This document shows, piece by piece, positions 8,094 through 27,859 of a DNA stretch of 33,225 nt (position 1 is its first letter; every line of letters begins with the position of its first letter). The translations under genes and the position numbers were made by a program. The notes under the pieces are model-generated. The model had not been told where the DNA came from. It searched no databases and saw nothing but the letters and a program-made list of their open reading frames with translations. Source of the DNA: Acidobacteriota bacterium (GTDB lineage: Bacteria > Acidobacteriota > Terriglobia > Acidiferrales > UBA7541); NCBI GenBank assembly GCA_003224105.1, contig QHYL01000260.1:1-33225 (forward strand). Direction: 5' to 3'.

Positions 8094-8996
8094 ATGAAAA
8101 AATCAATAGCCGTTCTATGTTGCGCGTTGCTCTTAGTTCTTTGTTTTCCTGCAGGTGATTTCAAAGCGCAAACTCAGGATGTCATTCTTGTCGGAGCCGG
8201 CGACATTGCCCGTTGCGGCCCGGAAAACCTTCACTATCCCCAGGCCACCGCCACGTTACTCGATTCCCTTCCCGGCAGCGTCTTTGCCATCGGCGACCTT
8301 GCGTACGTCGACGGACTGGAAACCGAGTTCAACAGATGCTTTGACGCCACTTGGGGGCGCCACCGTGGTCGCCTGCATCCGGTCCCTGGCGTGCACGACA
8401 TGATCGCGCCAAACGCTTTTGGCTACTTCAATTATTTCGGGCCTTCCGCGGGCGATCCCACGAAGGGCTACTACAGCTTTAACTATGGTGCCTGGCACGT
8501 GGTGGTCCTCAATAGTGTGTGTACCAAGGCGCCTACCTTACCTGGCGCTTGCACAGCCACTTCGCCCGAGGGGCAATGGCTTCAAGCCGACCTGGCCGCG
8601 AATCCCACTGCCTGCACCGTGGCTCTCTGGCATACCCCGCTCTACACTTCCTCGACGGCCGACGCAACTCCCGCCGTGCAGCCTTTCTGGCAGATTCTCT
8701 ACAACGCCAGAGCCGACCTGATCATCAACGGCCACGCCCACAACTATGAACGTTTCGCCCCGCAAGACCCCAACGGCAATTTGGATACAGCCAGCGGCAT
8801 TCGCGAATTCGTCGTTGGGACCGGTGGCGAAACTCTGATGTCCTTTGACACCACACTCGCGCCAAACAGCGAAGTCCGCAACAGCTCGACCAACGGCGTC
8901 ATTCAAATCACTCTTCATGCAACCAGCTTCGATTGGCAGTTCATACCAGTCGCAGGTCAAACCTTTACTGATTCGGGTTCCCAGGCGTGCCATTGA
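8094..8996 (+). CDS. Secreted metallophosphoesterase (purple-acid-phosphatase-like)
   Basis: This is a predicted exported phosphoesterase of 300 residues with a signal peptide at residues 1-25 (MKKS, then a Leu/Cys-rich core, cut near FKAQ). The calcineurin-like metal-binding blocks are in order: GDI (Asp37), GDLAY (Asp68, Tyr71), GVHD (residues 99-102), WHTPLY, and NGHAHNYER near residue 220. Block 3 normally reads GNHD or GNHE. Here the metal- and phosphate-binding Asn is Val100, so activity may be altered or lost. The ATG at 8094 has GGAG seven bases upstream and gives the signal peptide; a longer frame overlaps the previous gene. It lies 40 bases after the giant surface protein and upstream of the export genes. 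Its substrate is unknown; phosphate recovery or trimming of a phosphorylated glycan is inference. Confidence 0.82.
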   Translation: MKKSIAVLCCALLLVLCFPAGDFKAQTQDVILVGAGDIARCGPENLHYPQATATLLDSLPGSVFAIGDLAYVDGLETEFNRCFDATWGRHRGRLHPVPGVHDMIAPNAFGYFNYFGPSAGDPTKGYYSFNYGAWHVVVLNSVCTKAPTLPGACTATSPEGQWLQADLAANPTACTVALWHTPLYTSSTADATPAVQPFWQILYNARADLIINGHAHNYERFAPQDPNGNLDTASGIREFVVGTGGETLMSFDTTLAPNSEVRNSSTNGVIQITLHATSFDWQFIPVAGQTFTDSGSQACH

Positions 8997-9064
8997 CGGT
9001 AGACCCGCTGCCTCTTGTGGCGCCACCGAAAATCACACCTGGAGAGTTCGAGGAGAAAATGTCC

Positions 9065-9799
9065 ATGCATAGCAAAATTCTTTGTTTTTTCGGAGCTTGG
9101 ATTCTTCTTGTGACGGCCGGGCGTGCATGCGCGGGCCAAGGAAAGCCAGAGGCGTCCACAGCCGACGCACTGACGGCAGCGGGTGGTCCCAAGACGACTC
9201 CAGAGGCGGTGGACCGCCCTGAGCTACATCGACGGAATCCGCGATACCAGTTGAGCAAAGACGATGTCCTTCAGTTGAATTTCGCTTTGACACCAGACTT
9301 AAATCAAACGGTCAGTGTCCAGCCAGATGGCTACATCACTTTGCTGGGTGTGGGTGATCTACATGTGGAGGGACAAACGATTCCAGAGGTCAGGGAATCG
9401 ATTCGCCTGGCTTACGCCAAAACGTTGCACAACGCCATCATCACCGTCCGCCTGATGGACTTCGAGAAACCGTATTTCATCGTGGGTGGAGAAGTGGGAC
9501 ATCCAGGCAAATTTGAATTGCGTGGAGACACGACTGTGACGGAGGCGGTAGCCATCGCGGGCGGTTTCACAGAAAGCTCGAAACACTCACAAGTCTGGCT
9601 TTTCCGCCGCGTTTCGAACGATTGGGCGGAGACACAGCGGTTTGACTTAAAGAGAATGCTCAAGAGCGGCGATCTGCGGGAAGACGCGCATCTGCGTCCT
9701 GGCGACATGTTGTACGTTCCCAAGAATACACTCTCGAAGATGAAACGCTTTATCCCCGTCGCTACTTTAGGAACGTATCTCAATCCGGGCCAGTTTTAG
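9065..9799 (+). CDS. Polysaccharide export protein (Wza-like, Poly_export/SLBB)
   Basis: This is the outer-membrane or periplasmic component that forms the exit channel for exopolysaccharide. It has 244 residues. A signal peptide covers about residues 1-21 (KILCFFGAWILLVTA), with cleavage near ACA-G; no good lipobox is visible. The Poly_export domain covers about residues 55-140 (YQLSKDDVLQLNF, VSVQPDGYITLLGVGDL). One SLBB-type beta-grasp domain follows (YFIVGGEVGHPGKFELRG, TVTEAVAIAGGF). Canonical Wza is longer, with several SLBB domains and a C-terminal helix, so this is the short form common outside Proteobacteria. The ATG at 9065 is nine bases after AGGAG; the ATG at 9059 is also in frame but too close. 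It directly precedes the Wzz-like gene, the usual Wza-Wzz pairing. Confidence 0.85.
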   Translation: MHSKILCFFGAWILLVTAGRACAGQGKPEASTADALTAAGGPKTTPEAVDRPELHRRNPRYQLSKDDVLQLNFALTPDLNQTVSVQPDGYITLLGVGDLHVEGQTIPEVRESIRLAYAKTLHNAIITVRLMDFEKPYFIVGGEVGHPGKFELRGDTTVTEAVAIAGGFTESSKHSQVWLFRRVSNDWAETQRFDLKRMLKSGDLREDAHLRPGDMLYVPKNTLSKMKRFIPVATLGTYLNPGQF

Positions 9800-9834: not shown

Positions 9835-11367
9835 ATGGACGAAGCGAAATCAGAAAAAAAACACAATGGTAACAATGGCGCGTCGCCCTCTTTTTCTTTG
9901 CGGGATTTGCTTGGTGCGATTTTTCGCCGCAAAAGACTGATCCTGCTCTCCTTCATGGGAGTTTTGCTGGGCGCCCTTCTCGCAATTATCATCCTGCCTT
10001 CCACGTATGAAGCGCAGATGAAAATCCTGGTGGAGCATGAACGTGTGGACCCGGTCGTATCTCCTCAGGGCAACGTAGTTGAATCAGACCGGTACCTCAC
10101 TCCCGACGAGGTTTCCTCGGAAGTCGAGCTGTTCCAGAGCCGTGATTCCCTAAAACAAGTCGTCGTGGATCACGGACTTCATGAAATCAAGAATCCGTGG
10201 TCTCTGGCAGGCATCAAGATGCGTGTGCTGGGAACCCTCGGACTTGCGCCCGGCAAGGATGAGCGGATTTTTAAGGCTGTCCTTAAGCTGGAAAAGGACC
10301 TGCATGTCATTCCGCTGAACAACTCAAATATGATCCGGGTGACGTACGAGGCGCGCTCGCCCCAGACCGCTGAGCAGGTGCTTACCGGGCTAGGGAACCT
10401 CTACCTAGCAAAGCACGCCGAGGTGCATCGTCCAGGGGGGACCACTGAGTTCTTCGAGCAGCAAGCCGATCAATACAAGAGAGAACTGGCCAGCGCCGAG
10501 TCGCGGCTGATCAAAATGAGTCAGCAAACCGGAGTCGTTTCCGCGGACTTCGAGAAACAAGCCACTTTGCAGAAACTCAGCGATTTCGACGTTTCGCTTG
10601 AGCAAACACGCGCCTCCATCGCCGAGACAAAACAACGGATCCAGGCCTTGCAAGAAAAAGAGGAATCCATTCCTTCCCGCATTACGACCCAGGTTCGTAA
10701 CGCGGATAATCCCGAACTCATGGCAAACCTTAAAACGACCCTGCTGAATTTGGAAATCAAACGCACGGATTTGCTCGAGGCTTATGAGCCGGGCTATCCA
10801 CTGGTTCAAGAAGTTGAGAAGCAGATTGCCCAGGCAGTGACAGCAATCGCGGACGCCAAGGCAGGTGCAGTTCACGAAGAGACCACTGATCAGAATCCCA
10901 CTCATGAGTGGGTCAGCACCGAGATGGCCAAAGCCCAGGCCGACTTAATGGGCTTGGAAGCGCGCTCTTCCGCGCTTTCCCGAGGCCTCAACACTCTTCA
11001 TCAAAAGGCCTTGAAATTGGACCAACAATCGGTGGTTCAGCAGGACCTCTTGCGCACGGCTAAAGCGGACGAGGACAGCTATCTGCTGTATCACAGGAAG
11101 CGCGAAGAAGCGCGCATTGCCGATGCGCTCGACCGCAGCAAGATTATCAACGTGGCCGTAGCAGAAGCGGCAGCCGCTCCATTAGTCCCCACGGGGCTTT
11201 CGTTGACGGTAAAGCTCATCTTAGCGATTGTCATCGCTGCCCTCGCAAGCTTGGGAGCAGGCTTGCTTCAAGAGCATCTCGATCCCTCCTTCCGGACAAC
11301 CGCCGAAGTTAAGGAGTATCTGGACATTCCCTTGGTGGCTGCTGTTCCAAGAAACGATCATAGGTAG
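9835..11367 (+). CDS. Wzz/GumC-like polysaccharide chain-length/export protein
   Basis: This is an inner-membrane polysaccharide co-polymerase of 510 residues that should set chain length and couple synthesis to the Wza-like channel. A first transmembrane segment (about residues 33-55) opens a Wzz domain (ILPSTYEAQMKILVEHERVDP). Long Gln/Glu/Leu-rich coiled coils fill about residues 200-420. A second membrane segment lies near residues 450-475, followed by a short tail ending PLVAAVPRNDHR. The Pro-rich motif before the last helix (PTGLSLTVKL) fits the family. There is no fused tyrosine-kinase domain, unlike Wzc, so a separate partner is expected; the only candidate nearby is the degenerate CpsD-like protein. 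A strong Shine-Dalgarno, GGAGGAGG, lies upstream of the ATG. The ATPase gene starts five bases after its end. Confidence 0.86.
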   Translation: MDEAKSEKKHNGNNGASPSFSLRDLLGAIFRRKRLILLSFMGVLLGALLAIIILPSTYEAQMKILVEHERVDPVVSPQGNVVESDRYLTPDEVSSEVELFQSRDSLKQVVVDHGLHEIKNPWSLAGIKMRVLGTLGLAPGKDERIFKAVLKLEKDLHVIPLNNSNMIRVTYEARSPQTAEQVLTGLGNLYLAKHAEVHRPGGTTEFFEQQADQYKRELASAESRLIKMSQQTGVVSADFEKQATLQKLSDFDVSLEQTRASIAETKQRIQALQEKEESIPSRITTQVRNADNPELMANLKTTLLNLEIKRTDLLEAYEPGYPLVQEVEKQIAQAVTAIADAKAGAVHEETTDQNPTHEWVSTEMAKAQADLMGLEARSSALSRGLNTLHQKALKLDQQSVVQQDLLRTAKADEDSYLLYHRKREEARIADALDRSKIINVAVAEAAAAPLVPTGLSLTVKLILAIVIAALASLGAGLLQEHLDPSFRTTAEVKEYLDIPLVAAVPRNDHR

Positions 11368-13191: not shown

Positions 13192-13287
13192 TAGAGAGCT
13201 GTGCCGAGCGCGTGTTTGCGCCAGTCCCGTTCGCTCTGCCGGCCGCGCCTGACTTTTTCTGGATTCCGAGAATTCTGCAGGAACCAA

Positions 13288-14496
13288 GTGAAGCCCGATT
13301 TGGTTAGACATAATCACACGGAGAGATCGGCAGCCACACTCTCCAAGGATTTGCAGAGAACGGAGTTTGACATCCACGGGGTTTTGGGGGTTGCGCTCGT
13401 CGATCCTTCCTCTGCGGATGTGAAAGCGGTTATCAAGCATCTTGGACCTCTTCGGGGGCCTTTGCTGCGCGAGCCGGACATCACCATCCGCTTTGACAAA
13501 AATCTGGCGCCCCTCTGCTTACGGCACTTAGGTCAGAAGCAAAACGCCTTCACGGACGATGCATTCTTTGTTTTTGATGAGACAGACAGAAGCGCCATGG
13601 CGAAGATTCCCTTCGACCAAGTAGGAAGTCGCTGTGAAATTGTTTGCACGCGTAGCCGCGGGTCCATGCCCCTTCTGGTGCCCCTCTTGAGTTTGATTGC
13701 CTTGGCGAAGGGCTTTGTCGCGGTTCATGCATCCGCTTTTGTTCATCGTGGCGTAGGCATCCTGATGGCCGGATGGGCTGGAAGCGGAAAGACCACGGCG
13801 CTTCTCGGGTTTGCTAGCGAAGGAGCGGAATTTATTGGAGAGGAATGGGTTCTCCTCAGCGGAGACGGACAAACCATGTGTGGGCTTCCGAGGGAGATCG
13901 AACTCTCGCCCGCCCACTTGGACACCGTGCCCGAAGTTCGTCGCGCGATTAAACGCTCGAGGCTCTGGGGATTTGAAAGCCTTCGTCACCTAACCACAAT
14001 GCAAGACCTTCTTCCCAGGAAAGCCGATGGCACAACTCCCGCGAAGGCCCTGCGAAAAGTGATTTCCGCGGCACAGCGGCGCATTCTCCCCACAGTGCGC
14101 CCACAGGCGCTTTTTGGCGACCGCGTCGCTTCGTTGACCGCAAGGCCCGACAAAGTCTTCCTGCTGATCAGTCACGATGATCGCAACGTAGAAATAATAC
14201 CGACTCCGCCCCGGGAAATGGCGCGCCGCATCGCTCACATGATGCAGTATGAGCAGCGCCGGTTTATGGAACACTACCTCGCCTTCCAATTTGCATTTCC
14301 TGAAAGGAAGAACGCCTTCGTAGAAGAATCGTCGAGCTATCGATATGAATTACTCTTGAGCGCTCTCCAGGGAAAGGAAACTTATACGGTACGGCACCCG
14401 CATCCGATAGCCTTTTCTTCGCTGTATGAAGCAGTGAAGCCATTTTGCGGAACCACGAAAAGTATTCAAACCGAGGTGGTTTGTGCGGTCCCATGA
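13288..14496 (+). CDS. HprK-like P-loop protein (serine kinase-like)
   Basis: This protein of about 402 residues contains an HPr-kinase/phosphorylase-like C-terminal P-loop domain. The Walker A motif GWAGSGKTT lies at about residues 162-170 and is preceded by the family's FVHRGVGILMAG strand. GEEWVLLS stands where HprK has its acidic pair, with Glu in place of Asp. The N-terminal 150 residues resemble the variable lead-in of HprK-related proteins in exopolysaccharide and peptide-modification loci (VHASAF before the P-loop). No PTS protein or HPr is nearby, so a classical role in carbon control is unlikely. Phosphorylation of an export component is inference. The GTG at 13288 has AGGA six bases upstream; an in-frame GTG at 13201 would add 29 residues of unconvincing sequence. 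The gene follows the CpsD-like gene closely. Confidence 0.68.
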   Translation: MKPDLVRHNHTERSAATLSKDLQRTEFDIHGVLGVALVDPSSADVKAVIKHLGPLRGPLLREPDITIRFDKNLAPLCLRHLGQKQNAFTDDAFFVFDETDRSAMAKIPFDQVGSRCEIVCTRSRGSMPLLVPLLSLIALAKGFVAVHASAFVHRGVGILMAGWAGSGKTTALLGFASEGAEFIGEEWVLLSGDGQTMCGLPREIELSPAHLDTVPEVRRAIKRSRLWGFESLRHLTTMQDLLPRKADGTTPAKALRKVISAAQRRILPTVRPQALFGDRVASLTARPDKVFLLISHDDRNVEIIPTPPREMARRIAHMMQYEQRRFMEHYLAFQFAFPERKNAFVEESSSYRYELLLSALQGKETYTVRHPHPIAFSSLYEAVKPFCGTTKSIQTEVVCAVP

Positions 14497-14683
14497 GTCT
14501 CAACTGCGGGAGTAGTGGAGTTTTTGCCAGATACACTGTCTTTGGAACACAAGATTGCTTCGCTTCGCGGACAAAGAAAGAACGCAAACGGATGAGCTGG
14601 ACTGGGCATCGGTCCAAAGCTCGGGTGCCAGGGCAGGCATGTGTCCCGGTCCGGCGAGCCAATAGGAACAACGAAAACTAAAG
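14497..14683. other. Intergenic gap before first flippase
   Basis: About 190 bases without a credible gene. Frames on both strands are short and low in recognisable content. A GC-rich patch around 14608-14660 has several short self-complementary words but no clear single hairpin. It may carry a promoter for the flippase block. Confidence 0.3.
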
Positions 14684-16234
14684 ATGGCTTCCATAGCTGA
14701 AGTGATCCCGGCCGAAACTCAGTGCGCGAGGGATGCGACGCGGACGCAGATCCGCGGGTCCAGCCTTTTCCTCGCGGGTAGGTTCCTCTCAATGGGAATC
14801 AATTTCTCGGCACAGGTGTTGATGATCCGCTATCTCGCCACGTCAGAGTTTGGCGCACTTGCTTATGCCCTGGCAGTTGTTGCGTTCTTCCAACCCTTCG
14901 CCACGCTTGGATTACACGAAGCAGTTTCCCGCTTTGTTCCCATCTATCAAGAGAACCGCGAATTTCCAAAGATGCTCGGGACGATCCTGCTCTCCATCGG
15001 CACAGTTTTCTCGACGGGCCTGCTGATCATTGTGGCCATCTGGAGCGGCCCCGCCCTTCTCACCCATTTCATGACGTATGAAAGACTGCCCCGCCACCTT
15101 CTGTCCATCCTAATAATGGTCGTGCCGCTGGATGCGGCCGATGAGCTGTTTAATTCGCTCTTCGCGAGTTTTGCCAAAACACGGGCAATCTTTTTCCGCA
15201 AGTATGTCTTAGGCCCAAGCCTCAAGCTGGGCACCGTGCTTCTGCTCATCGGGTTGAAAAGCTCCGTCGTTTTCCTGGCGTACGGCTATCTAGTTGCCAG
15301 TGCAGCCGGAATCGCGATTTACGGTTGGATGCTTGTACGCCTCTTGCAGCAACAACATCTCTTGCAGCAACTACGGTTAGGCCCAGTGAAAATCCCGGCT
15401 CGTGAAATTCTGGCATTTGTTCTACCAGGAATCACTTCCAGCTTGGTTACGGTGGCTATTCACTCGGTCAACATTTTTATCCTGGGTTACCTGCACCCGA
15501 TGACGGAGGTGGCCTACTATCGGGCGGTGGTTCCCGTGGCGCAATTAAACGGTGTGGTTATGGCTAGCTTCACGCTTCTCTATATGCCGGCGGCCGCACG
15601 TCTCTTAGCCAAATCGGACTATCATGGAATCAATAAGCTGTATTGGCAGACGGCTGCATGGATGTCCGTGATGTCTTTTCCGGTTTTTGCACTTACCTTC
15701 TCTTTTGCGCAGCCGCTGACTGAGTTTCTTTACGGCGCCCGCTATGCGCGGTCAGGCCCCATCCTAGCGTTGTTAGCCCTGGGGAGCTATACGAACGTTG
15801 CCCTCGGCTTCAACCTGCAAACACTCAAAGTTCTGGAGAGGTTGCGTTACATCATTGTGGTGAGCTTGGTTGCAGCGTTGGTGGACGTTGTCCTGAATCT
15901 CCTGTTGATTCCCGGTCATGGAGCCCTTGGCGCAGCCATCGGCACGGCGGCAACACTTATCATTTACAACATACTCATGCAGGTGGGATTGCTTCCGGCC
16001 TCGAAGTTCACCGCGTTTGACCATCGCTATCTGCCCGTCTACCTGAGCATCGCGCTAGGCGCGGGAGGGCTGTTCTTGGTTCAATCGTTGCGCTCGATGA
16101 GTTTGTACCTTGCTGTGCTCTTGGTTGCCTCTATGTCGTTCCTAGTATTTTCCGTGACTAAGAAGACGCTTAGAATTGCCGAAACGTTCCCGGAACTATT
16201 GAAGGTGCCTTTGATGCGTCTGATTTTTGCTTGA
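14684..16234 (+). CDS. Wzx-type oligosaccharide flippase, copy 1
   Basis: This is an inner-membrane flippase of 516 residues from the MOP/polysaccharide-biosynthesis family that should move undecaprenyl-linked oligosaccharide to the periplasm. It has a cytoplasmic start (DATRTQIRGSSLFLAGRFLS), then about a dozen hydrophobic segments through residue 500. Family landmarks include YLATSEFGALAYALA and RFVPIYQENRE near the N-terminus and LYGARYARSGPILALLALG and GFNLQTLKVLERLRY in the second half. It is clearly paralogous to the flippase at 17540, aligning end to end with well over half of positions alike by eye. A GNAT-like gene lies between the two. Its ATG lacks a strong Shine-Dalgarno sequence, but the conserved RGSSLF start is near the N-terminus in both copies. 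Confidence 0.88.
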   Translation: MASIAEVIPAETQCARDATRTQIRGSSLFLAGRFLSMGINFSAQVLMIRYLATSEFGALAYALAVVAFFQPFATLGLHEAVSRFVPIYQENREFPKMLGTILLSIGTVFSTGLLIIVAIWSGPALLTHFMTYERLPRHLLSILIMVVPLDAADELFNSLFASFAKTRAIFFRKYVLGPSLKLGTVLLLIGLKSSVVFLAYGYLVASAAGIAIYGWMLVRLLQQQHLLQQLRLGPVKIPAREILAFVLPGITSSLVTVAIHSVNIFILGYLHPMTEVAYYRAVVPVAQLNGVVMASFTLLYMPAAARLLAKSDYHGINKLYWQTAAWMSVMSFPVFALTFSFAQPLTEFLYGARYARSGPILALLALGSYTNVALGFNLQTLKVLERLRYIIVVSLVAALVDVVLNLLLIPGHGALGAAIGTAATLIIYNILMQVGLLPASKFTAFDHRYLPVYLSIALGAGGLFLVQSLRSMSLYLAVLLVASMSFLVFSVTKKTLRIAETFPELLKVPLMRLIFA

Positions 16235-16315
16235 GGGCGTGGATTCTGTCCCTCTGCTTATTACTTTCCGCCGTAATCCTATCAGTCGGGTTCGCACAAG
16301 TTTGGGTGTTTCAAA

Positions 16316-17539
16316 ATGGGACGCGTACGAGCCTTTGTTCAGGATGACATTCCAAGAGTAGCGGAGTTGTACTGGCAATTCCTTCAGAGCCAGAAAGGCC
16401 CGCATCCTCCAGGCTTGGAGGAGTATTTTCAAGAAGTTTTTCTTCACAACCCGTGGTTTGACAGTTCCATTAGATCGCTCGTTTATGAGGACGGAAGCCG
16501 GATCGTCGGCTTTCAAGGCGTCGTGCCGCGGCCAATGTTCATGAACGGAAGAGCCATTCAGGCAGCTTTTGGGAGCAGTCTTGTGGTTCACCCGGAGAGT
16601 CGAGCGACGTTGGCGGGGCTGAAATTGCTCGTGGCCTTCATGGACGGGAAACAAGACGTGGCCATGACTGACACCTCGAACCGGTTGAACCAGCAGCTCT
16701 GGGAAAGATTGGGAGGAAGTACATCAGCCGCATATGGCATGAAGTGGGCGCGCCCCTTGCGGCCGGGCTTGTACGGGCTCTACACCATGTCCCGCCTTGG
16801 AAAGGAACGCTTCTCGGGCGCTGTCAGTCACCTGTGTGGGGTCCTCCAAGAGACCATCAACGTCGTGGCCGCAAGAATTCCCCGAGGCCACCTCCGCCGG
16901 CCGCCTGATGACGTCACGGAAGAAGAACTCGAGATTGACACGCTGCTGCGTTCCTGCCTCCCAGGTACTTCTGAGTGTTATTCGCTGCGGCCCGAGTATA
17001 ACCGGGAATCACTGAGATGGCTTTTGGATTTCATGAGCCGGATGAAGGCATTCGGAAATCTGCGCAAAGTCGTCTTGCGAGGCGCAACGAAAGAAATCAT
17101 CGGTTGGTTTATTTACTACGCGAAATGCGGCGGGATCGCTGATGTGGTGCAGATGGAGGCGGCAAAGTTCCACATGAACAAAGTCTTAGACTACTTATTT
17201 TGGGACGCATGGAACCGCGGAGCGATAGGTGTCCAAGGCAGGCTCGAAATTCGTTATGCGCAGGAATTATCAGAGGCGCGCTGCTTCTTTTGGGGGAGCG
17301 TTCCCTTACTTCTCCGTACTCGTAATCCGGAACTGGCGCGACTAGTTCAGCGGGGTGACGCTTGCATCTCGCGACTGGATGGCGAGTGGTGCCTGAGATA
17401 TGGCGCGCCAGGGCACGAGGGCGCGAGTGCCGCATTGGATCTCGCCAGCAAGCAGGAATCGAATCCCGAAACCACAAAGAAGCTCGCGCCAAGCAACTTT
17501 CAGCCTTCGCAGCCACTGCAACCGAAGGCGGCCGAATAA
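16316..17539 (+). CDS. GNAT-like acyltransferase of exopolysaccharide locus
   Basis: This is a predicted cytoplasmic N-acyltransferase-like protein of 407 residues. The first 150 residues follow a GNAT fold (VRAFVQDDIPRVAELYWQF, then IVGFQGVVPRPM, then SLVVHPESRATLAGLKLL), though the acetyl-CoA loop is not the textbook Q/RxxGxG/A. The second half (about 230-340) contains another strand-helix pattern with VLRGATKEIIGWFIYY, suggesting a tandem or FemAB-like arrangement. A 60-residue Ala/Gln/Pro-rich tail ends the protein. Its stop codon directly abuts the ATG of the second flippase, so the two are probably co-translated. A likely job is acylation of an amino sugar, which would fit the DegT/DnrJ aminotransferase downstream. 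The substrate is unknown. Confidence 0.65.
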   Translation: MGRVRAFVQDDIPRVAELYWQFLQSQKGPHPPGLEEYFQEVFLHNPWFDSSIRSLVYEDGSRIVGFQGVVPRPMFMNGRAIQAAFGSSLVVHPESRATLAGLKLLVAFMDGKQDVAMTDTSNRLNQQLWERLGGSTSAAYGMKWARPLRPGLYGLYTMSRLGKERFSGAVSHLCGVLQETINVVAARIPRGHLRRPPDDVTEEELEIDTLLRSCLPGTSECYSLRPEYNRESLRWLLDFMSRMKAFGNLRKVVLRGATKEIIGWFIYYAKCGGIADVVQMEAAKFHMNKVLDYLFWDAWNRGAIGVQGRLEIRYAQELSEARCFFWGSVPLLLRTRNPELARLVQRGDACISRLDGEWCLRYGAPGHEGASAALDLASKQESNPETTKKLAPSNFQPSQPLQPKAAE

Positions 17540-19081
17540 ATGGAAGTAGCCCTGGAAACCACCAAGACGCCTGGCGAACAGGACGCCACACGCAAGCAGA
17601 TCCGTGGCTCCAGTCTATTTCTCTTCGGTCGCATGTTGTCTCTGGGCATCAATTTTTTTACTCAAGTGCTAATGGTGCGCTACCTCTCGACGAGGGACTA
17701 CGGAGAGTTGGCTTATGGACTGGCGGTGGTCAGTTTTCTCCGAATTTTTGCTTCGTTGGGTCTGCAGGATGCAATTCCGCGTTTCGTGCCGATTTACAGG
17801 GAAAACCGCGAGTACGGAAGGATGTTCGGTACGATTCTCTTGGCCGTAGGAGCAGTTCTAGTTACCGGACTCCTTATCGTCGTCGTTATATGGAACGCAC
17901 CCCTGTTTCTCATGCCCTTCATCACGCACGAGGGCCTGCCTACCTTGGCTGTATTTTCGATCTTGATTGTCTTGGTACCTGTCGAAACGGCGGACGCACT
18001 GTTAGATGGTCTTTTTGCCAGCCTCGCGGGCACTCGGGACATTTTCTTTCGCCGGTACTTGCTGGGACCGGGGCTTAAGTTTGGTGTCGTGGCTCTTCTC
18101 TTGTGGATGAAAAGCACAATTATTTTCCTGGCGTGCGGATATCTCCTGGCGGGCGCAACGGGAGTGTTGATCTACGGAGTTCTGTTCATAAACCTTCTGC
18201 GCAAGCAAAACCTTCTTCAGCACTTGCGGCTTAAGGAGATAGCCATTCCTGCCCGAGAGACACTTGCTTTCGTTCTCCCGGGCCTTGTTTCCACTCTAGC
18301 CACGTGCATCGCTCCCGTGCATGTCTTCTTGCTGGGTCGCCTACGGACCATGCCGGAGGTCGCATTTTATCGAGCCGCGGTTCCGATTGCTGATCTAAAC
18401 AGCATTGTTTTTGCGAGCTTCACACTGTTGTACACGCCCCTTGCAGCGCGCCTTTTCGCCAGGTTGGACTACCGCGGCATCAACGGCCTTTACTGGCAGA
18501 CGGCCGCGTGGATGTCCGTATTGTCCTTTCCCATCTTCGCCGTTACCTTTTCTCTCGCAAAGCCTCTCACGGTGTTGCTTTACGGGGCGCGTTACGCACC
18601 GGCTGGTCCCGTGCTGGCTGTGCTTTCGTTATCCGTTTATTTCAACGTTATCCTCGGCTTCAACCTCCAGACGCTGAAGGTCTTTGAAAGACTGCGCTAC
18701 GTCATCGGCGCGAGCGTCACGGCGGCGCTTGCCAACCTCGTGGTGAGCGCAGTCTTGATAAAGCTATATGGAACAATAGGCGCTGGGATCGGTTCAGCCG
18801 TGACGCTGATTGGGTACAACTTGCTGTTGCAAGTGGGTTTATTACCGACCGCGGATTTTCATGTCTTTGATCGGCGCTATTTTTGGCTCTATTTGACGAT
18901 CGCATTGGCCGCGTGCGGTCTGTTTTTTGTGGGCTGGCTTACTTCATTAAGTTTGTATGTTTTACTTCCTCTTGCAGCGTGTGTCTCCTTATGCGTGCTT
19001 GCACTGGCAAAGAAGAAGCTCAGCATTGCGGAAACTTTCCCGGAGTTGCTTACCTTGCCGTTCGCGCGGCTCCTTACGTGA
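17540..19081 (+). CDS. Wzx-type oligosaccharide flippase, copy 2
   Basis: This second MOP-family flippase of 513 residues is paralogous to the one at 14684. Shared blocks include RGSSLFL, RFVPIY, FVLPG, YWQTAAWMSV, LYGARYA, GFNLQTLKV, QVGLLP and AETFPELL at matching places. The gene starts at the base after the GNAT-like stop codon, so translation is probably coupled. Divergence is spread along the whole length, including the membrane segments that line the channel, which suggests an old duplication with possible change of substrate. Both copies keep an intact frame. The alternative is simple redundancy after duplication of a flippase-GNAT unit. A single locus normally carries one Wzx, so two is notable. 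Confidence 0.87.
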   Translation: MEVALETTKTPGEQDATRKQIRGSSLFLFGRMLSLGINFFTQVLMVRYLSTRDYGELAYGLAVVSFLRIFASLGLQDAIPRFVPIYRENREYGRMFGTILLAVGAVLVTGLLIVVVIWNAPLFLMPFITHEGLPTLAVFSILIVLVPVETADALLDGLFASLAGTRDIFFRRYLLGPGLKFGVVALLLWMKSTIIFLACGYLLAGATGVLIYGVLFINLLRKQNLLQHLRLKEIAIPARETLAFVLPGLVSTLATCIAPVHVFLLGRLRTMPEVAFYRAAVPIADLNSIVFASFTLLYTPLAARLFARLDYRGINGLYWQTAAWMSVLSFPIFAVTFSLAKPLTVLLYGARYAPAGPVLAVLSLSVYFNVILGFNLQTLKVFERLRYVIGASVTAALANLVVSAVLIKLYGTIGAGIGSAVTLIGYNLLLQVGLLPTADFHVFDRRYFWLYLTIALAACGLFFVGWLTSLSLYVLLPLAACVSLCVLALAKKKLSIAETFPELLTLPFARLLT

Positions 19082-19152
19082 AACGCGTCTCGAAGAAGTC
19101 GGGATGCGCGACTCTTTCTTTCGTTCGCGCCTGACTTGGATCGTTGAACGCT

Positions 19153-20733
19153 ATGAGAACCATGTCCATAGATGCCTTCGCGGTACGTGATGCGAAGGCT
19201 CTGCTGCCGTTTGCCGTTGGCGGCTTCGCTATTTTCTTTCTGCTGCAACTCAACGTAGTGGTGGCAGCAGGCGCGCTCATCCTCGTTGGCGTGCTGGCGT
19301 TAATGCTTCGTCGGCCGGAGCTGGGAGCGGCTGTAGCTCTTTTCGCCATCTACTCGAATATCGCCGTTCTCGCCATGCGGTCCGAGAGAGCAGTTCAAAC
19401 CGCGGCGGGATCGGCCGGCCAGAATCCGCGAATCGCGATGGTGCTGGCGGCGGTGTCGTTGCTTCTCTTGGTGCCTTTGGTCCACCAAACAATGGTCCGC
19501 AGACAAAAATTGATCTTCGATCGCGGATTTGTTCTCATGCTCGTCCTCGTTGCGGCTTTACTCGCATCTTCCTTTTTTGCCCGAGACTGGCAAATCGCGG
19601 AATCGCAGGTTGCCGACTATCTACTTGAGGGCCTCGTTCCCTATTTTCTCTTGACCAACGTCATCCGCGATTTCTCGACCCTGAAACGAGTTACCTGGAG
19701 TTTGCTTCTCGCCGGTAGCTTGATGGGCGGGCTCACTCTCTATCAAAGAGCGACACATACCGAGGAAAAAATTTACGGCGGCCTCGCCCAGATGGGCGTG
19801 GACATTACCTTGAGTGAAAACGGGCAGGAACGTTCGCTGCGGCCCGTCGCTTCGGCCGAAGAAAACGGGCAAACAAGAGGCCAGTTGCGAGCGGCAGGTC
19901 CCATCGGCGAGCCGAATCGGTATGCACAGATTCTGCTGGTTCTTCTCCCGTTAGCTGCTCTGACATTTCGCATGGAGCGCTCCCGCAGGCTGCAAGCACT
20001 CGGCTTGGCTACGGGCGCCCTCATCCTCGGCGGTCTCCTGCTGACATTCTCGCGATCCGCTATTCTCGCGGGATGCGTGTTGTTCGCCATGATGGCGTAC
20101 CTGCGATTGCTAAAACCTCGCCAAGTTCTTGTGTCCGGGTTCGGCCTGGGCGTGGTGACCCTAGCTTTTGCCCCAGGGGTGGTTGGCAGGCTGGCAACTC
20201 TGGAGAATTTGAAGAGCCTGGTGCTCCATACGGACTACACTTACCGGGCGCCGGACAGTTCCGCGGTCCACCGCTATGTATTGAATTCCGCGACGTGGCA
20301 TGTGTTCCTGGATCACCCGATCCTCGGCGTTGGCCCAGGGCACTTTGCCGAATATTACGCGATACCCTATTCCAATCGCGTTGGCTTGATCGAAACAAGA
20401 AAAAAGTATCGAGGCCATAACCTTTATCTGGAAACGCTGGCGGAAACGGGTGTCATCGGCTTTGTCTCGTTGCTAGCCATTCCGTTCGTCGTCATGCGCG
20501 AGCTCTGGAAAGAACACCGCTCGTTGGAACAAACCCATCCGGAACTCCGAAACTGGGCGGGGGCGTTCTTTCTCTGCCTTTGTGGCTACGCCATAACGGC
20601 TATCTTTGACCATTTATCCTACCAGAGGTACTTCTGGCTGCTGGTGGCAGTCTGCAGCGCCGCAGCTCGGATTGTGCGTTCCGAGCGCAACGCGCAGGAC
20701 GTGAAAGGATCCTTTTCGTTTCAAGGAGTTTGA
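19153..20733 (+). CDS. O-antigen ligase/polymerase family membrane protein (Wzy_C)
   Basis: This polytopic inner-membrane protein of about 526 residues has roughly a dozen hydrophobic segments. It belongs to the Wzy/WaaL/EpsF-like group that polymerises or ligates undecaprenyl-linked repeat units. The large periplasmic loop of the Wzy_C domain covers about residues 340-430, with RYVLNSATWHVFLDHPILGVGPGHF-type sequence and HNLYLETLAETGVIGF. The His of HNLYLE is the position implicated in catalysis in WaaL. A shorter polar insertion (about 205-250, rich in Glu and Gln) precedes it. The start is uncertain: ATG at 19153 is chosen, with TTG at 19144 and ATG at 19162 close by, and none has a strong Shine-Dalgarno sequence. 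It follows the second flippase, which completes the Wzx/Wzy pair. Confidence 0.82.
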   Translation: MRTMSIDAFAVRDAKALLPFAVGGFAIFFLLQLNVVVAAGALILVGVLALMLRRPELGAAVALFAIYSNIAVLAMRSERAVQTAAGSAGQNPRIAMVLAAVSLLLLVPLVHQTMVRRQKLIFDRGFVLMLVLVAALLASSFFARDWQIAESQVADYLLEGLVPYFLLTNVIRDFSTLKRVTWSLLLAGSLMGGLTLYQRATHTEEKIYGGLAQMGVDITLSENGQERSLRPVASAEENGQTRGQLRAAGPIGEPNRYAQILLVLLPLAALTFRMERSRRLQALGLATGALILGGLLLTFSRSAILAGCVLFAMMAYLRLLKPRQVLVSGFGLGVVTLAFAPGVVGRLATLENLKSLVLHTDYTYRAPDSSAVHRYVLNSATWHVFLDHPILGVGPGHFAEYYAIPYSNRVGLIETRKKYRGHNLYLETLAETGVIGFVSLLAIPFVVMRELWKEHRSLEQTHPELRNWAGAFFLCLCGYAITAIFDHLSYQRYFWLLVAVCSAAARIVRSERNAQDVKGSFSFQGV

Positions 20734-20775
20734 ACTCCTGATGTGGCAGAGTTGGAGTAAGCCGCCACTCCACTG
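20724..20775 (+). promoter_or_regulatory. Two adjacent hairpins sharing the same stem words
   Basis: AGGAGT (20724-20729) pairs with ACTCCT (20734-20739) across the ligase stop codon. GGAGT (20754-20758) pairs with ACTCC (20767-20771), extendable by AGT/ACT across one bulged T. The halves are interchangeable between the two stems, so alternative pairings are possible. No T-run follows. The second stem ends just before the GAGGAGG Shine-Dalgarno of the lipoprotein gene. This may set expression of that gene relative to the membrane genes upstream. Confidence 0.4.
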
Positions 20776-20787
20776 AGGAGGTTCGCC

Positions 20788-22470
20788 ATGACTATATGCG
20801 GAGTGAGTGATAAAAAGGGCGGCGTCGCCGGTCGGGTAAGGTTCTCTGTATGGCTGCTAAGTCTGGGAGCGGCCACGGGTTGGCTTACGGGTTGCGGAGG
20901 AGGCCAGGCGTCCGAACCCGTTACCTTGGTTTCCATCACCGTGACCCCGGCCAACGCTTCCCTTCAAGCGCCAGCGAGTCAGCAGTTTACCGCCACTGGC
21001 GCCTTCAGCGACGCTTCGACAAAGGACATCACCAAGTCTGTGAGTTGGACATCTTCGGACACCAGCAAGGCGACCATTCAGAATTCGGGACTCGCGACCG
21101 TTGTCGCGGCCGGTTCGGTAACCATTGCAGCCGCATCCGATGGCAAAACCGGAACGGCAACGCTCGCGATCACCGCGCCCACTCTGACTTCAGTTGACGT
21201 AAGCCCCCTCAATCCCACGATCGCTGCCAATGGAACGCAACAATTCTTTGCCAATGCCAGATACAGCGACAACTCCCTCCAAGATGTCACGCAAAATGCG
21301 ACCTGGACATCTTCAGATCCGAATGTCGCCACGGTTCAGAGTACGGGCCAGCAGAACCCCGGCCTGGCCATGGGCGTAGCGGCTGGGACGGCGACGATCA
21401 CAGCCGCTTTCAATGGCACGAGCAGCTCAACCTCCCTCACGGTAACCATTCCAGCCGGCAACGGCACCAAGATACCCTTGATGGACATGACACCGTCAGA
21501 AAACTATTTGACTTTCCAGGGAGGGCTATACGAAAACAGCAGCGGCACAGCCTCCCCGGATCATGACAGGGCAGGCTTAGCAGCGGCCGCCACGATTCAA
21601 CCCCTGGATATAAACGGGAACCCAAGTGCGTCGGGCAAGATTGTCTTCGTCGCAGTTGGCAGGTCCACCACTGTGGACGAGTTTGCGGCCTTCATGAACC
21701 AAGCCGCGGCCAATTCTGGCGTCAATCACGCCACGCTGGTAATTGCGAACGGAGCACTCAGCGGAGCCATGCCCTGTGTTTGGACCGTGGCTAGCGGACT
21801 GCCGCCGTGCGACCCGAGCCTGGGGAACCAGTATGATCGCGTTCGGGATTCAGTCCTCGCTCCACTAGGGCTCACTGAAAAGCAGATACAAGCTGCCTGG
21901 ATCGAAGAATACAACGCTGACCCGGCCGGTGACGGCTTCCAATCCTTGTGCGATCCCACGGTCGCCGGGTGCTCGAACAGCGCGAGCCAAACAGAGGCAT
22001 TGCGCTACGAGCAGCAGTTGGGAGGCGCCTTACGAGCTGCCAAGACGCGCTGGCCAAACTTGCAACAGGCTTTTCACTCCAGCCGCATTTATGGCGGATA
22101 TGCGACCACAAACCATAGCTCTGAGCCATATCCGTACGAGTATGGCTTTTCCGTGAAATGGCTGATCCAAGCGCAGATTCTCCAAATCCGCGGCGGCGGA
22201 ACGTCCATCGATCCCACAGCCGGCGATTTGAATTACCAAGTTGGCGCGGTTCCTTGGACGGCGTGGGGTCCTTACACCTGGGCCAACGGTGACACACCGC
22301 GCTCAGATGGCTTGGTCTGGTGCAACGGGCAAGCCGGCTCGCCGTGCAACGGCGAAGTGGACTTCCAGACCGATGGCACGCATCCAAATCCTCAAGGCGA
22401 CACTAAGGTGGCGAATCTGTTGATGAACTTCTTCCTGAATTCTCCTTACACCCCCTGGTTCCGGCCATGA
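20788..22470 (+). CDS. Lipoprotein with two Big_2 domains and an SGNH-like hydrolase domain
   Basis: This is a predicted outer-membrane or surface lipoprotein of 560 residues. A hydrophobic segment (about 19-33) ends in the lipobox LTGC with Cys36. Two Big_2-like immunoglobulin domains follow (about 46-130 and 133-220), each with a WTSSD motif. The C-terminal 320 residues contain an SGNH-like pattern: GRS with Ser293 after a hydrophobic strand, VIANGALSG in the middle, and the closing DxxH motif DGTHPN with Asp529 and His532. That points to an esterase or lipase-type enzyme, possibly removing acyl groups from surface polysaccharide. The fit with the GNAT-like gene upstream is inference. The ATG at 20788 has GAGGAGG six bases upstream. 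The hydrolase assignment rests on these few motifs. Confidence 0.72.
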   Translation: MTICGVSDKKGGVAGRVRFSVWLLSLGAATGWLTGCGGGQASEPVTLVSITVTPANASLQAPASQQFTATGAFSDASTKDITKSVSWTSSDTSKATIQNSGLATVVAAGSVTIAAASDGKTGTATLAITAPTLTSVDVSPLNPTIAANGTQQFFANARYSDNSLQDVTQNATWTSSDPNVATVQSTGQQNPGLAMGVAAGTATITAAFNGTSSSTSLTVTIPAGNGTKIPLMDMTPSENYLTFQGGLYENSSGTASPDHDRAGLAAAATIQPLDINGNPSASGKIVFVAVGRSTTVDEFAAFMNQAAANSGVNHATLVIANGALSGAMPCVWTVASGLPPCDPSLGNQYDRVRDSVLAPLGLTEKQIQAAWIEEYNADPAGDGFQSLCDPTVAGCSNSASQTEALRYEQQLGGALRAAKTRWPNLQQAFHSSRIYGGYATTNHSSEPYPYEYGFSVKWLIQAQILQIRGGGTSIDPTAGDLNYQVGAVPWTAWGPYTWANGDTPRSDGLVWCNGQAGSPCNGEVDFQTDGTHPNPQGDTKVANLLMNFFLNSPYTPWFRP

Positions 22471-22662
22471 GTTTCCACACCCATGACATCGGGCAGCAGT
22501 GCACGAACTCAGTGAATGATGGAGTCGGTGTTTGCCTCGGAAGTTGCAATTTCCCGAATCGAGCAAAGACCTCCAGTGAACCGGGTCACGCGTAGCCTGA
22601 AAGGCTTCTGGGCAACGCGCCTACCATAGTTTGTTTCACAAAAAGGTAAAAGGAGTCTAGCC
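22471..22662. other. Intergenic gap after SGNH-type lipoprotein gene
   Basis: About 190 bases with no gene I can support. It ends in a strong AAAGGAG Shine-Dalgarno (about 22649-22655) that serves the broken IPT/TIG gene. Confidence 0.3.
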
Positions 22663-23153
22663 ATGAAGAGAAACATTAGAAATGTCGAAATGCACGTGCT
22701 CGCCGCTAGAGTTACGGCGGCTCGCCATTCACGGTGGAGTCGGCGGCGTTGCCTACTATCACCTCGTTCTCGCCGGCGAGCTTCACCGTGGTATCGGACA
22801 CGCAGATCACGGCGACGGTGCCGGGCGGAGCGCTAACCGGCTGGATCAGCATGAAGACGGCTGACGGCACCGCCTGGAGCAGCAGCAACTTCGCCGCGAC
22901 CTCGGCGGGCGCGCCCACGATCAGCAGCTTCTCGCCCGCCAGCGGGTCGGCGGGCTGGACGGTGACGCTGACAGGGACGAATTTCACCGGCACGACGGGA
23001 GTGAGCATCAACGGTACGGCTGCCACCACGTTCTGGGCCACCTCGGACACCCAACTCAAAGTAAGCGTGCCGAGCGGGGCGACGAGCGGACCAATCGCAG
23101 TGACCAACACAGCAGGGACAACCACGAGCGCGAGCAACCTCACAGTGAATTAA
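22663..23153 (+). pseudogene. Broken IPT/TIG-domain secreted protein gene
   Basis: A good start site, AAAGGAG followed by ATGAAGAGAAAC at 22663, opens a frame that turns into Arg-rich nonsense and stops after about 57 codons. The meaningful coding sequence lies in a different frame, from about 22713 to the TAA at 23151-23153. It carries a shortened first IPT/TIG unit (PTITSFSPAS joined directly to FTVVSDTQITATVP, so the strand region between them is missing). A complete second unit follows (PTISSFSPASGSAG, VTLTGTNFTGTTGVSINGTAAT, SDTQLKVSVPSGATSGPIAV). The intact second unit could be translated from a GTG at 22734 as a 139-residue fragment without a signal peptide. The simplest reading is a secreted IPT/TIG protein that lost an internal part and its reading frame. 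The region is unusually GC-rich compared with its neighbours. Confidence 0.6.
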
Positions 23154-23154
23154 A

Positions 23155-23199
23155 GGGCGAGCGAGGCAGGGACCCGTATTTCTCCTGAGGCCCTTTTTT
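23155..23199 (+). terminator. Possible terminator after IPT/TIG relic
   Basis: GGGC at 23155-23158 can pair with GCCC at 23190-23193, with an inner CAGGG/TCCTG pairing. The structure is followed by six T (23194-23199). The stem is interrupted by an internal loop, so this is a weak candidate. Its place two bases after the relic's stop codon supports it. Confidence 0.35.
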
Positions 23200-23234
23200 C
23201 AATCTCCGAGCTAAAACCTGAAACGACGATCCTC

Positions 23235-24215
23235 TTGCTGAGAATCCTGGCATACCATCGAGTCGCTGAATTACGGGACACACCTACGGTAGATTCCCGG
23301 AGCGTCAGTGCGACGCCTGCGGTTTTTACTCGGCAGATGCAGCATCTGGCGCGTCATTATCATGTCATCGGTATGCCCCAACTCTTGAACAGCATTGAGA
23401 GCGGGGCGTCCCTTCCCAAGCGAGCCGTGCTGATTACTTTTGATGACGCTTATGCCGACTTCGCCGAAATCGCGTGGCCAATTCTGAAGCGATTGGGGCT
23501 GCCCGCGACCATGTTCGTTCCAACCGCTTATCCAGACCATCCCGAAGTGCCCTTTTCGTGGGACAAGCTGTATCAGGCGTTCAAAGCTACTGCTCGAACA
23601 GAATTGTGCGGAACGCCGCTTGGCCATTTGCCGCTCCGCGACTTTGAAGAGAAGCGGCGCGGCCTACGCAAAGTCCAAGGCTGCTGCACCACCATCCCAC
23701 ACGATGAGGCGATGAGACTGGTTGATTCGGTGTGTGCTGAACTCGTGGAAGGACAGGAATATTCAGGGAGCGTCTTGACCTGGGACCAACTCCGCAAACT
23801 GACAAAAGAAGGACTTACGCTGGGATCACACACACGAACACATCCCATCATGACCCAAGTGACGGCAGACACTATGCGCGAGGAGGTCAAGGGATCTCAA
23901 GAAGATCTCAAAAGAGAAATGGGAACTGCTCTGCCAATCTTTTGCTATCCCAACGGGAATCATAACAACACGGTCGTTTCGGTTGTGAGAGACGAGGGTA
24001 TCCGGCTAGCTTTTACAACACTCAGCGGAGAAAACAAGTCGGAATCGCTGGACCTCCTGCGGTTGCGACGCGTCGTTATCACTCCCCGAACATCGATTGC
24101 TGTTTTCTATGCCCGCCTCTTCCGGATAGGCGCCTACCTCGATGCCTGGCGCCATGGAAGCTTGAAAAAGAATCCAATTGCAACGTGGTCCAAGCATCGA
24201 GCCAGCGTCGTCTAG
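23235..24215 (+). CDS. Polysaccharide deacetylase family protein (NodB-like)
   Basis: This is a carbohydrate-esterase-4-type deacetylase of 326 residues expected to remove N- or O-acetyl groups from a polysaccharide or its precursor. The NodB blocks are visible: TFDDAY with the catalytic and metal-binding Asp70-Asp71, the metal-binding HTRTHP with His199 and His203, and a CYPNGNHN block near residue 240. The N-terminal MLRILAYHRV is the usual start for the family and forces a TTG start codon at 23235, since no ATG or GTG is available in frame upstream. No signal peptide is visible, so it may act in the cytoplasm or be secreted by another route. About 110 residues between the TFDD and HTRTHP blocks hold a helical insert found in exopolysaccharide-locus members. 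Confidence 0.84.
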   Translation: MLRILAYHRVAELRDTPTVDSRSVSATPAVFTRQMQHLARHYHVIGMPQLLNSIESGASLPKRAVLITFDDAYADFAEIAWPILKRLGLPATMFVPTAYPDHPEVPFSWDKLYQAFKATARTELCGTPLGHLPLRDFEEKRRGLRKVQGCCTTIPHDEAMRLVDSVCAELVEGQEYSGSVLTWDQLRKLTKEGLTLGSHTRTHPIMTQVTADTMREEVKGSQEDLKREMGTALPIFCYPNGNHNNTVVSVVRDEGIRLAFTTLSGENKSESLDLLRLRRVVITPRTSIAVFYARLFRIGAYLDAWRHGSLKKNPIATWSKHRASVV

Positions 24216-24342
24216 GCCCGCACTAGACTCCACTATTAAGCATGAAAAGAGTTCTGAATACGCTCTTAGGAAACTGCTGACGACTAACCGGGAGGGTCCG
24301 GAATTTCCGCATAGATACTCACATCCGTTGGACTAACGACAA

Positions 24343-25668
24343 ATGAATAGCCAGCCCCTAACATCTGGGACGCTCATGTTTGACGGCGGAATCGGGACGA
24401 CGATCTCGCCGTCGGACGCCCCATTGAAAAGGCCGGACTCGCAGTCAAGGTTAGACAGGGTCCTGATATTGGATGGAAACACCAGAAGCGCGCTCGCGGC
24501 AACGCGGTCTCTGGGAATGAAAGGAGTGCATGTCGTAGTCGCTGACGAGAACAAAAGAACCTTGGCGGGCGCCTCGCGATACTGCAGCGAGAGGTTTACC
24601 TACCCGTCCCCAACCGGCGACCTGGAAGGCTTCCTGGCGACCGTTAAGAGGGAATGCTCCCGGCGCGAGATCGGGGTGATCCTGCCCATGACGGATATTA
24701 GTACCTCGACGGTGTTGAGACATCGCGAAGAATTTGAACCTTTGCGAGTGCCGTTCGCGGAACTTAAAGCTTTTGAAGCGTTGACTGACAAATGGAGGCT
24801 GTTCCAACTCGCGCAACAGCTCAATCTATCGATGCCAAAAACGCAGTTCGTGAGGGACATCAACTCACTCGGCGATGTCTTTCAAGCGCTGAAGTTCCCC
24901 GTAGTCCTGAAACCCCACCGTTCCATGATCTCGTCCAACGGACGCTGGATTGCAACCTCCGTACGGTACGCCCGCTCGGTCGAGGAGCTAAAAGCGATTG
25001 CGGCGCGATATGAGTACTTTAGCCGGCACCCTTTCATGATCCAAGAATATATCTCGGGCCAAGCCGAGGGAGTATTTGTTCTGTGCGATCAGGGCAAACC
25101 GATTGTTTTTTTCGCGCACCGGCGCTTGCGAGAAAGACCACCAACTGGCGGAGTCAGCGTTCTGAGTGAAAGCATCGAGCCGAATCCGGAAGCGCAGAGG
25201 ATAGCGCGCACCATACTCGAACACGTTGGATGGCACGGCGTGGCCATGGTCGAGTTCAAGGTTTCCGCTGAGGGAACTCCGTACCTCATGGAAGTGAATG
25301 GGCGCTTTTGGGGATCGCTGCAATTAGCAATCGACGCGGGCGCAGACTTTCCTTGGCTCCTCTATCAATCGGCGATTGGAACAGATTTAGACAAGGTAAA
25401 ACCATACAGCACCGGAGTCAAATGCCGATGGCTGCTGGGTGATTTGGTCAGCCTTTGGAAGGTATTAATCAGCAACGGATCAGGTCCCCACCCGTTACCT
25501 TTCGGGAAGGTCCAATCGATTCTGCAGTTTTTGAATTTCTTCGAAAAAGCCTCGCGATGTGAAGTAAACCGCTGGGACGACCTTAGGCCTTTTTGGTTGG
25601 AAATGACCCAGTACGCCAGGGAATTGGGATCCAGCTTTGTAAAGCGCATCGTTCGACCCCGCATTTAA
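24343..25668 (+). CDS. ATP-grasp ligase
   Basis: This is an ATP-grasp enzyme of 441 residues that should join a carboxylate to an amine or thiol through an acyl-phosphate. After about 35 polar residues, an N-terminal Rossmann-like domain reads VLILDGNTRSALAATRSLG. The ATP-grasp core covers about residues 145-350: LTDKWRLFQLAQQLNL, FPVVLKPHRSM with the ATP-binding Lys, MIQEYISGQAEGVFV, and MEVNGRFWGS with the metal-binding Glu and Asn. Similar proteins in exopolysaccharide loci are annotated as carbamoyl-phosphate-synthase-like. Here the enzyme could attach an amino acid to a sugar carboxylate or amino sugar, but no substrate can be read from sequence. It lies between the deacetylase and the aminotransferase genes. 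No strong Shine-Dalgarno precedes the ATG. Confidence 0.8.
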   Translation: MNSQPLTSGTLMFDGGIGTTISPSDAPLKRPDSQSRLDRVLILDGNTRSALAATRSLGMKGVHVVVADENKRTLAGASRYCSERFTYPSPTGDLEGFLATVKRECSRREIGVILPMTDISTSTVLRHREEFEPLRVPFAELKAFEALTDKWRLFQLAQQLNLSMPKTQFVRDINSLGDVFQALKFPVVLKPHRSMISSNGRWIATSVRYARSVEELKAIAARYEYFSRHPFMIQEYISGQAEGVFVLCDQGKPIVFFAHRRLRERPPTGGVSVLSESIEPNPEAQRIARTILEHVGWHGVAMVEFKVSAEGTPYLMEVNGRFWGSLQLAIDAGADFPWLLYQSAIGTDLDKVKPYSTGVKCRWLLGDLVSLWKVLISNGSGPHPLPFGKVQSILQFLNFFEKASRCEVNRWDDLRPFWLEMTQYARELGSSFVKRIVRPRI

Positions 25669-25784
25669 GTCTAGGACCTTTTTCGATCAAGCAATCTAAA
25701 TATGTGAGCAATTTCCGTCTTCGAGCAGGCCTCATTCCACAAGGCTCCATCGCTGACAGCCACACATCTGGAGAAGCTACTCCT

Positions 25785-26957: not shown

Positions 26958-27033
26958 CTAAACGCAGGCCCGGCGGGACTTACGCCCAACGTCACGCCAA
27001 AAACAAACACAGGACAAATGGAGGTTACAAGCC

Positions 27034-27813
27034 ATGAGCAGAGTTCCACAACTTCGCCGGGGCTGCGCGCAGAGTCGCGGCGCAAGCGGCTTGCCGGCCA
27101 CCCGCGCGGGAGAAACCAAGAACCGCGTAAGCCCAGAAAACTTGGGGGCGAGAAGTGGGTTCTACGTGCGTTTTGGCAAGAGGATATTTGACTCCGCCGG
27201 AGCCGCCGCGGTGTTGGTGATCGCAGCTCCTTTTCTCCTCCTTTGCGCACTTGCGGTGCGACTAGAGTCTCGAGGTCCAATCTTCTTCCGGCAATGGCGA
27301 GTCGGCCAGAACGGCAAACCTTTCCAGGTCATCAAATTTCGGAGCATGGTTCGTGGAGCGGACAAACAGGGACTGAAAATCACAGCCTCGGGCGACCCGC
27401 GAATCACCAAGATGGGTAGACTTCTTCGACGAAGCAAAATGGATGAACTTCCGCAACTATTCAACGTACTTCGAGGCGAAATGAGCCTTGTAGGACCGCG
27501 CCCGGAAGTGCCGGAGTACACGGCGAAATACAGTCTCGCCGAAAGGAAAGTTCTGGAGGTGAAACCCGGAATCACCGGACCCGCCTCCCTGGCTCACATT
27601 GACGAGGAGCAGCTTCTCGCTGGCCGGTCGGACAAAGAGCATTTCTACGTCAGCACGATCATGCGGCGCAAACTGCAGATCGATCTGGCGTACTGCCGGA
27701 ACGTAGGCTTTGGCGAAGACGTGAAGAACCTATTGTTGACCGCGGGAGCCTTGTTTATGCCGGGAAATTTTCGCGCGAAGAGCATGGAGACCGCCCCGGA
27801 AGGCATCGAGTAG
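27034..27813 (+). CDS. Initiating sugar-phosphate transferase (bacterial sugar transferase, short form)
   Basis: This is a phosphoglycosyltransferase of 259 residues that should load the first sugar-phosphate onto undecaprenyl phosphate and start repeat-unit synthesis. After an unusual polar, Arg/Gly-rich leader of about 45 residues comes a single hydrophobic, re-entrant-type segment (KRIFDSAGAAAVLVIAAPFL). The catalytic domain follows: PIFFRQWRVGQNGKPFQVIKFRSM, the Asp137-Glu138 pair in SKMDELPQL, and LRGEMSLVGPRPEVPEY. The multi-span N-terminal half and Rossmann-like domain of WcaJ/WbaP are absent. A membrane domain resembling that half is instead fused to the next gene's SDR. A good GGAGG Shine-Dalgarno lies nine bases before the ATG at 27034. 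Confidence 0.88.
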   Translation: MSRVPQLRRGCAQSRGASGLPATRAGETKNRVSPENLGARSGFYVRFGKRIFDSAGAAAVLVIAAPFLLLCALAVRLESRGPIFFRQWRVGQNGKPFQVIKFRSMVRGADKQGLKITASGDPRITKMGRLLRRSKMDELPQLFNVLRGEMSLVGPRPEVPEYTAKYSLAERKVLEVKPGITGPASLAHIDEEQLLAGRSDKEHFYVSTIMRRKLQIDLAYCRNVGFGEDVKNLLLTAGALFMPGNFRAKSMETAPEGIE

Positions 27814-27827
27814 ACGGATAAGCAAGC

Positions 27828-27859
27828 GCGAAGGTCCCCGCAAAGGGCTTCGCACGGGG
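27828..27859 (+). promoter_or_regulatory. Two mutually exclusive hairpins between transferase and SDR genes
   Basis: GCGAAG (27828-27833) pairs with CTTCGC (27848-27853). CCCCG (27836-27840) pairs with CGGGG (27855-27859). The arms interleave, so both stems cannot form as simple hairpins at once. A pseudoknot is formally possible, but only one base separates the last two arms, which makes it strained. The element lies 14 bases after the transferase stop codon and may modulate the downstream SDR gene. Confidence 0.35.

Follow-up and report, generated by a model that had tools for sequence, protein, structure and literature searches.

Gene content of the locus and its two flippase genes

The window analysed here, 33,225 nucleotides in length, is one entire contig of a 5.1-Mb draft genome from a soil acidobacterium (736 contigs, 3.4% contamination). 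It carries a polysaccharide locus in which two paralogous flippase genes stand on either side of a gene for a GNAT-like protein, with the following main features.

8987 to 9799, forward strand: Wza-like outer-membrane export protein (PF02563, 57.1 bits)
9835 to 11367, forward strand: Wzz/EpsF-like chain-length determinant (PF02706, 43.7 bits; TIGR03007 under its cut-off)
13201 to 14496, forward strand: HprK-related protein, upstream of WzxA (TIGR04355, 33.7 bits, under the cut-off of 200; 71% identical in L057, part of the related locus described below)
14684 to 16234, forward strand: WzxA, PST-family (MOP superfamily) flippase of 516 aa (PF01943, 55.2 bits; PF13440, 44.9 bits)
16316 to 17539, forward strand: GNAT-like protein of 407 aa (weak match to PF13527, E=0.009)
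17540 to 19081, forward strand: WzxB, PST-family flippase of 513 aa (PF01943, 42.8 bits; PF13440, 32.5 bits)
19144 to 20733, forward strand: WzyC or O-antigen-ligase-like polymerase, after WzxB (PF04932, 76.9 bits)
27034 to 27813, forward strand: PglC/Bac_transf initiating phosphoglycosyl transferase (PF02397, 200.7 bits)

Both flippases score above the Pfam cut-offs of 28.2 bits for PF01943 (Polysacc_synt) and 23 bits for PF13440 (Polysacc_synt_3). In a BLASTP comparison they align end to end with 302 of 505 residues identical (60%), two gap positions and a score of 588 bits, and at the DNA level the two genes can be aligned over the whole coding sequence with clear similarity ending at the gene boundaries. 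The open reading frames, Pfam matches and BLASTP alignment bear out the sequence-only reading of this stretch, which had described two flippase copies around the GNAT-like gene that align end to end yet differ throughout. Its statement that the second copy is directly coupled to the GNAT-like stop codon is correct as anatomy, as the TAA stop (17537-17539) abuts the ATG of WzxB (17540) with a gap of 0, the two codons together filling 17537-17542, and we infer translational coupling of the GNAT-like gene to WzxB. Composition lends no support to the idea that either copy was recently imported by horizontal transfer, as GC3 and codon use of both WzxA and WzxB match the locus.

The locus begins with NusG-like, choice-of-anchor-D/SBBP-repeat and calcineurin-like phosphoesterase genes followed by Wza, Wzz, AAA and HprK-like genes and then by WzxA, the GNAT-like gene and WzxB. 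Beyond WzxB lie WzyC, a Big_2 protein, a polysaccharide deacetylase, ATP-grasp and DegT aminotransferase genes and the PglC-like transferase, with epimerase, dTMP-kinase-like, methyltransferase and glycosyltransferase genes making up the last part. Wzx is encoded here alongside a Wzy polymerase, Wzz and an initiating phosphoglycosyl transferase, and the fact that Wza, Wzz, the WzyC polymerase and the PglC-like initiating transferase each occur once in the window argues for one polymer. Other flippase genes do occur on other contigs and a second polysaccharide locus lies on contig C2. The window, moreover, covers its contig from end to end, and the locus may thus be truncated. One of the flippases could then serve a second glycan, with the remaining genes for it situated elsewhere or past the limits of the contig. 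We consider this unlikely given that both flippase genes sit within one co-directional gene run and that polymerase, chain-length protein and initiating transferase are each encoded only once in the window.

The NusG-domain gene that opens the locus (3211-4002) is possibly a dedicated antiterminator for a long operon. The protein with a Big_2 Ig-like domain encoded between the wzyC and deacetylase genes (20788-22470) has no counterpart in the related locus described below. Varying subsets of the HprK-like, Wzx-type, WzyC, dTMP-kinase-like, deacetylase and ATP-grasp genes (13201-30228 in the window) recur together in other Acidobacteria and in a Chloroflexi record (L073, L078 and L009), and what the HprK-like and dTMP-kinase-like proteins do in exopolysaccharide loci of this kind is not obvious.

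A related locus with one flippase and the age of the two copies

A scan of genome contigs found only two relatives, and among 89 genomes of the family the Wzx type of this locus is present only in the window genome and in one congeneric genome, Acidobacteria bacterium gp2 AA88 (hereafter G032). The syntenic locus in G032 (L010/L056 and L057) is spread over two contigs, each of them broken off within the GNAT gene. The first runs directly from the HprK-like gene into GNAT with no Wzx between them and the second carries GNAT, a single Wzx and WzyC; a search of the G032 genome returned no other close Wzx. The two loci share the order HprK-like, GNAT, Wzx, WzyC, deacetylase, ATP-grasp, DegT, PglC and epimerase, with most genes 68-86% identical and with WzyC 68% identical to the G032 gene that lies beside its Wzx. 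They differ in that G032 is without WzxA and has a methyltransferase gene between the deacetylase and ATP-grasp genes (L010 4926-5846) where the window has none. WzxB stands where G032 has its single Wzx and, with no flippase between the HprK-like and GNAT genes of G032, WzxA is the copy that differs.

This synteny also bears on whether the pair could have arisen by chimeric assembly, the genome being metagenome-assembled. The draft state of the assembly and its level of contamination leave some room for such an artefact, but synteny with G032 holds on either side of the pair, composition is uniform and copies that are 60% identical cannot derive from collapsed strain variants, which makes a chimera very improbable.

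A frameshift interrupts the G032 Wzx in the assembly, and the sequence therefore entered the analysis as two separate reading-frame pieces with nothing mended. Pairwise identities are nearly equidistant (WzxA-WzxB 59%, WzxA-G032 61% and WzxB-G032 62%) and in the protein tree the three sequences form one clade with support of 100/99. The best tree pairs WzxB with the G032 Wzx at 93/90, in line with synteny but not firm: in the AU test constraining WzxA with WzxB cost 5.3 lnL units (p=0.07) and constraining WzxA with G032 gave p=0.06, neither being rejected, and the codon model expressed no clear preference in the branching order of the three. A mosaic history of the flippase copies is possible, the sole hint of it being the start of the G032 Wzx (MDAIAEV), which is similar to that of WzxA (MASIAEV). 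The intergenic comparison of the window with G032 was uninformative.

In order to look at selection a branch-wise codon model was fitted to 490 codons in five sequences. The resulting omega values were 0.072 for WzxA, 0.077 for WzxB and 0.106 for G032, all of them rough given long branches and probably saturated synonymous sites, and omega=1 was rejected for WzxA and for WzxB at a cost of about 17 lnL units for either copy. Judged from the codon model, neutrality is ruled out over the history of each copy and neither has been a relaxed pseudogene over that history. The duplication is old by the same sequence comparisons, and a recent tandem duplication is rejected by the 60% identity, the long codon-model branches and the lack of clear flanking similarity. 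A very recent duplication in which one copy is under relaxed selection, named in the sequence-only reading as the outcome that would speak against it, is contradicted on both counts, as the distance between WzxA and WzxB is at least as great as their distances to G032 and omega=1 is rejected for each; the phylogeny with related Wzx proteins shows WzxA, WzxB and the G032 Wzx to be long diverged and not a recent pair. An identity of 60% together with rejected neutrality in each copy fits the retention of two functional flippases.

Predicted structure and conserved residues

The AlphaFold model of WzxA (pLDDT 78, pTM 0.78) has the two-helix-bundle fold of the MOP superfamily as in MurJ and WzxE, and a structural search with it gave MurJ (6nc6) and WzxE (9g9n) as best PDB matches with TM scores of 0.77-0.79 (target); a PDB sequence search with the Wzx profile returned nothing at E 0.01. 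The window locus resembles WzxE (9G9N) and the Wzx-Wzy loci in its PF01943/PF13440 matches, its MurJ/WzxE-like predicted fold, its WzyC neighbour and its Wza/Wzz setting. It differs in having two paralogues versus one and in an identity of only 18% to WzxE in the structural alignment. Both copies keep arginines that are invariant or nearly so in the family (R83/81, R280/278, R306/304, R353/351 and R388/386); in WzxE the positively charged lumen residues are R44/R239/R143/R282.

Charge differs between WzxA and WzxB at many positions. Relative to 60 positions that are invariant in nine homologues WzxA departs at three and WzxB at six, and WzxB carries changes in a conserved late transmembrane motif (P to K408, A to T412 and A to G416) of which the proline is invariant in the nine homologues. 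These substitutions could reflect a changed preference or a weakened, reduced function. The excess of departures in WzxB and the loss of the motif proline would suit a scenario of functional decay in WzxB (or in WzxA), its role having passed to the other copy, but the low omega of WzxB, the rejection of neutrality and its fully open frame make this rather unlikely, with the proviso that a very recent relaxation would escape detection.

Possible roles of two flippases in one locus

The explanation that we favour, held tentatively at a little short of even confidence, is that WzxA and WzxB are functional and anciently diverged paralogues of one Wzx/Wzy locus that have been kept most likely for different versions of the repeat unit. 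Under this explanation an ancestral duplication, or the capture of a closely related copy, would have set WzxA between the HprK-like and GNAT genes. Each flippase would take a repeat unit linked to undecaprenyl pyrophosphate across from the cytoplasmic leaflet to the periplasmic one, the single WzyC would polymerise the flipped unit and Wzz and Wza would carry the polymer out. Purifying selection would have kept both copies, most likely because the two prefer different forms of the unit, such as one that bears a substituent and one that does not. We infer the flipping activity, the shared polymer and the split of substrates. Taken more broadly, the two paralogues probably differ in repeat-unit preference or jointly raise capacity.

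A possible but less probable reading is that both copies flip an identical unit and owe their retention to capacity or redundancy. It is favoured by the single polymerase and single initiating enzyme of the locus, by the core charged residues being alike in both copies and by the eps cluster 1 of Lactiplantibacillus plantarum MC5, where two wzx genes were read by the authors as giving greater transport capacity (PMC10185785). On the other side, 60% identity and long, separate and constrained histories exceed the divergence needed for pure dosage, and the charge differences between the copies likewise speak against it. If the copies are redundant the case is one of ordinary duplication.

The GNAT-like gene raises the question as to whether a modification distinguishes the two cargoes. 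Its product reaches 16.4 bits against PF13527 (Acetyltransf_9), for which the cut-off is 25, although a relative in the same genome (L053) scores above it at 27.9 bits. The profile of the GNAT-like protein resembles N-myristoyltransferase and aminoglycoside acetyltransferase at E values of 0.04-0.45, and an AlphaFold model made from two sequences (pLDDT 38) was too poor for use of the fold. The label GNAT-like for 16316-17539 is reasonable but weak on such sequence matches; the protein is probably a cytoplasmic acyl- or acetyltransferase of the locus, and a role as cytoplasmic modifier is plausible. In a more speculative reading the GNAT-like gene and the two flippases would make up a cargo-sorting unit: the GNAT-like protein would acylate part of the lipid-linked repeat-unit pool, acylated units would go to the co-translated WzxB and unmodified ones to WzxA, and the ratio of flippases would thereby set the acylation pattern of a single polymer, a scheme that we regard as improbable.

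The relative L053 (G000:C2:12132-13199) lies in the second polysaccharide locus of the genome together with two AMP-binding ligases, a carbamoyltransferase and an asparagine synthase.

How much of the repeat unit a Wzx protein recognizes, be it the whole, the end or only a little, remains a matter of debate. Two paralogues in one single-polymerase pathway, together with a related locus that has one flippase, offer a natural comparison for the determinants of flippase preference. The ability of MOP flippases to respond to a single terminal sugar or substituent is illustrated by Wzx1 and Wzx2 of Yersinia pseudotuberculosis, which tell apart terminal dideoxyhexoses (PMC6436433), and by pneumococcal TacF, which monitors phosphocholine (PMC13385700). 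Both differ from the present case, as the Yersinia proteins come from separate gene clusters and not from one locus and TacF is a 14-helix teichoic acid flippase. For the group B streptococcal carbohydrate a second flippase has been proposed for its two building blocks (PMC4931226).

The premise of the sequence-only reading that polysaccharide loci normally carry one Wzx is fair as a generality, and single copies of this Wzx type with 40-53% identity are found in other Acidobacteria and one Chloroflexi record, but there are exceptions both in the literature and in the same class. When 151 genomes of the class were surveyed with PF01943, a pair being taken as two intact flippases within about 15 kb and counts being minimal, at least two other such loci were present among the matches listed (G004:C22 and G156:C156), with copies 39% and 38% identical respectively. 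Like the window, each has two intact PF01943-family flippases in a polysaccharide locus; unlike the window, the copies are about 9-12 kb apart and do not surround one GNAT gene, and the flippases of both loci and of L. plantarum MC5 belong to Wzx subfamilies other than that of the window. Possession of two flippases is uncommon for a locus but has parallels elsewhere in the class and in L. plantarum MC5. The G156 locus (L083, G156:C156:64000-83500) also contains a broken third flippase copy that is 66% identical to one of the intact copies, and in the G004 locus (L084, G004:C22:24000-41000) a gene of the FemAB/GNAT fold adjoins one flippase.
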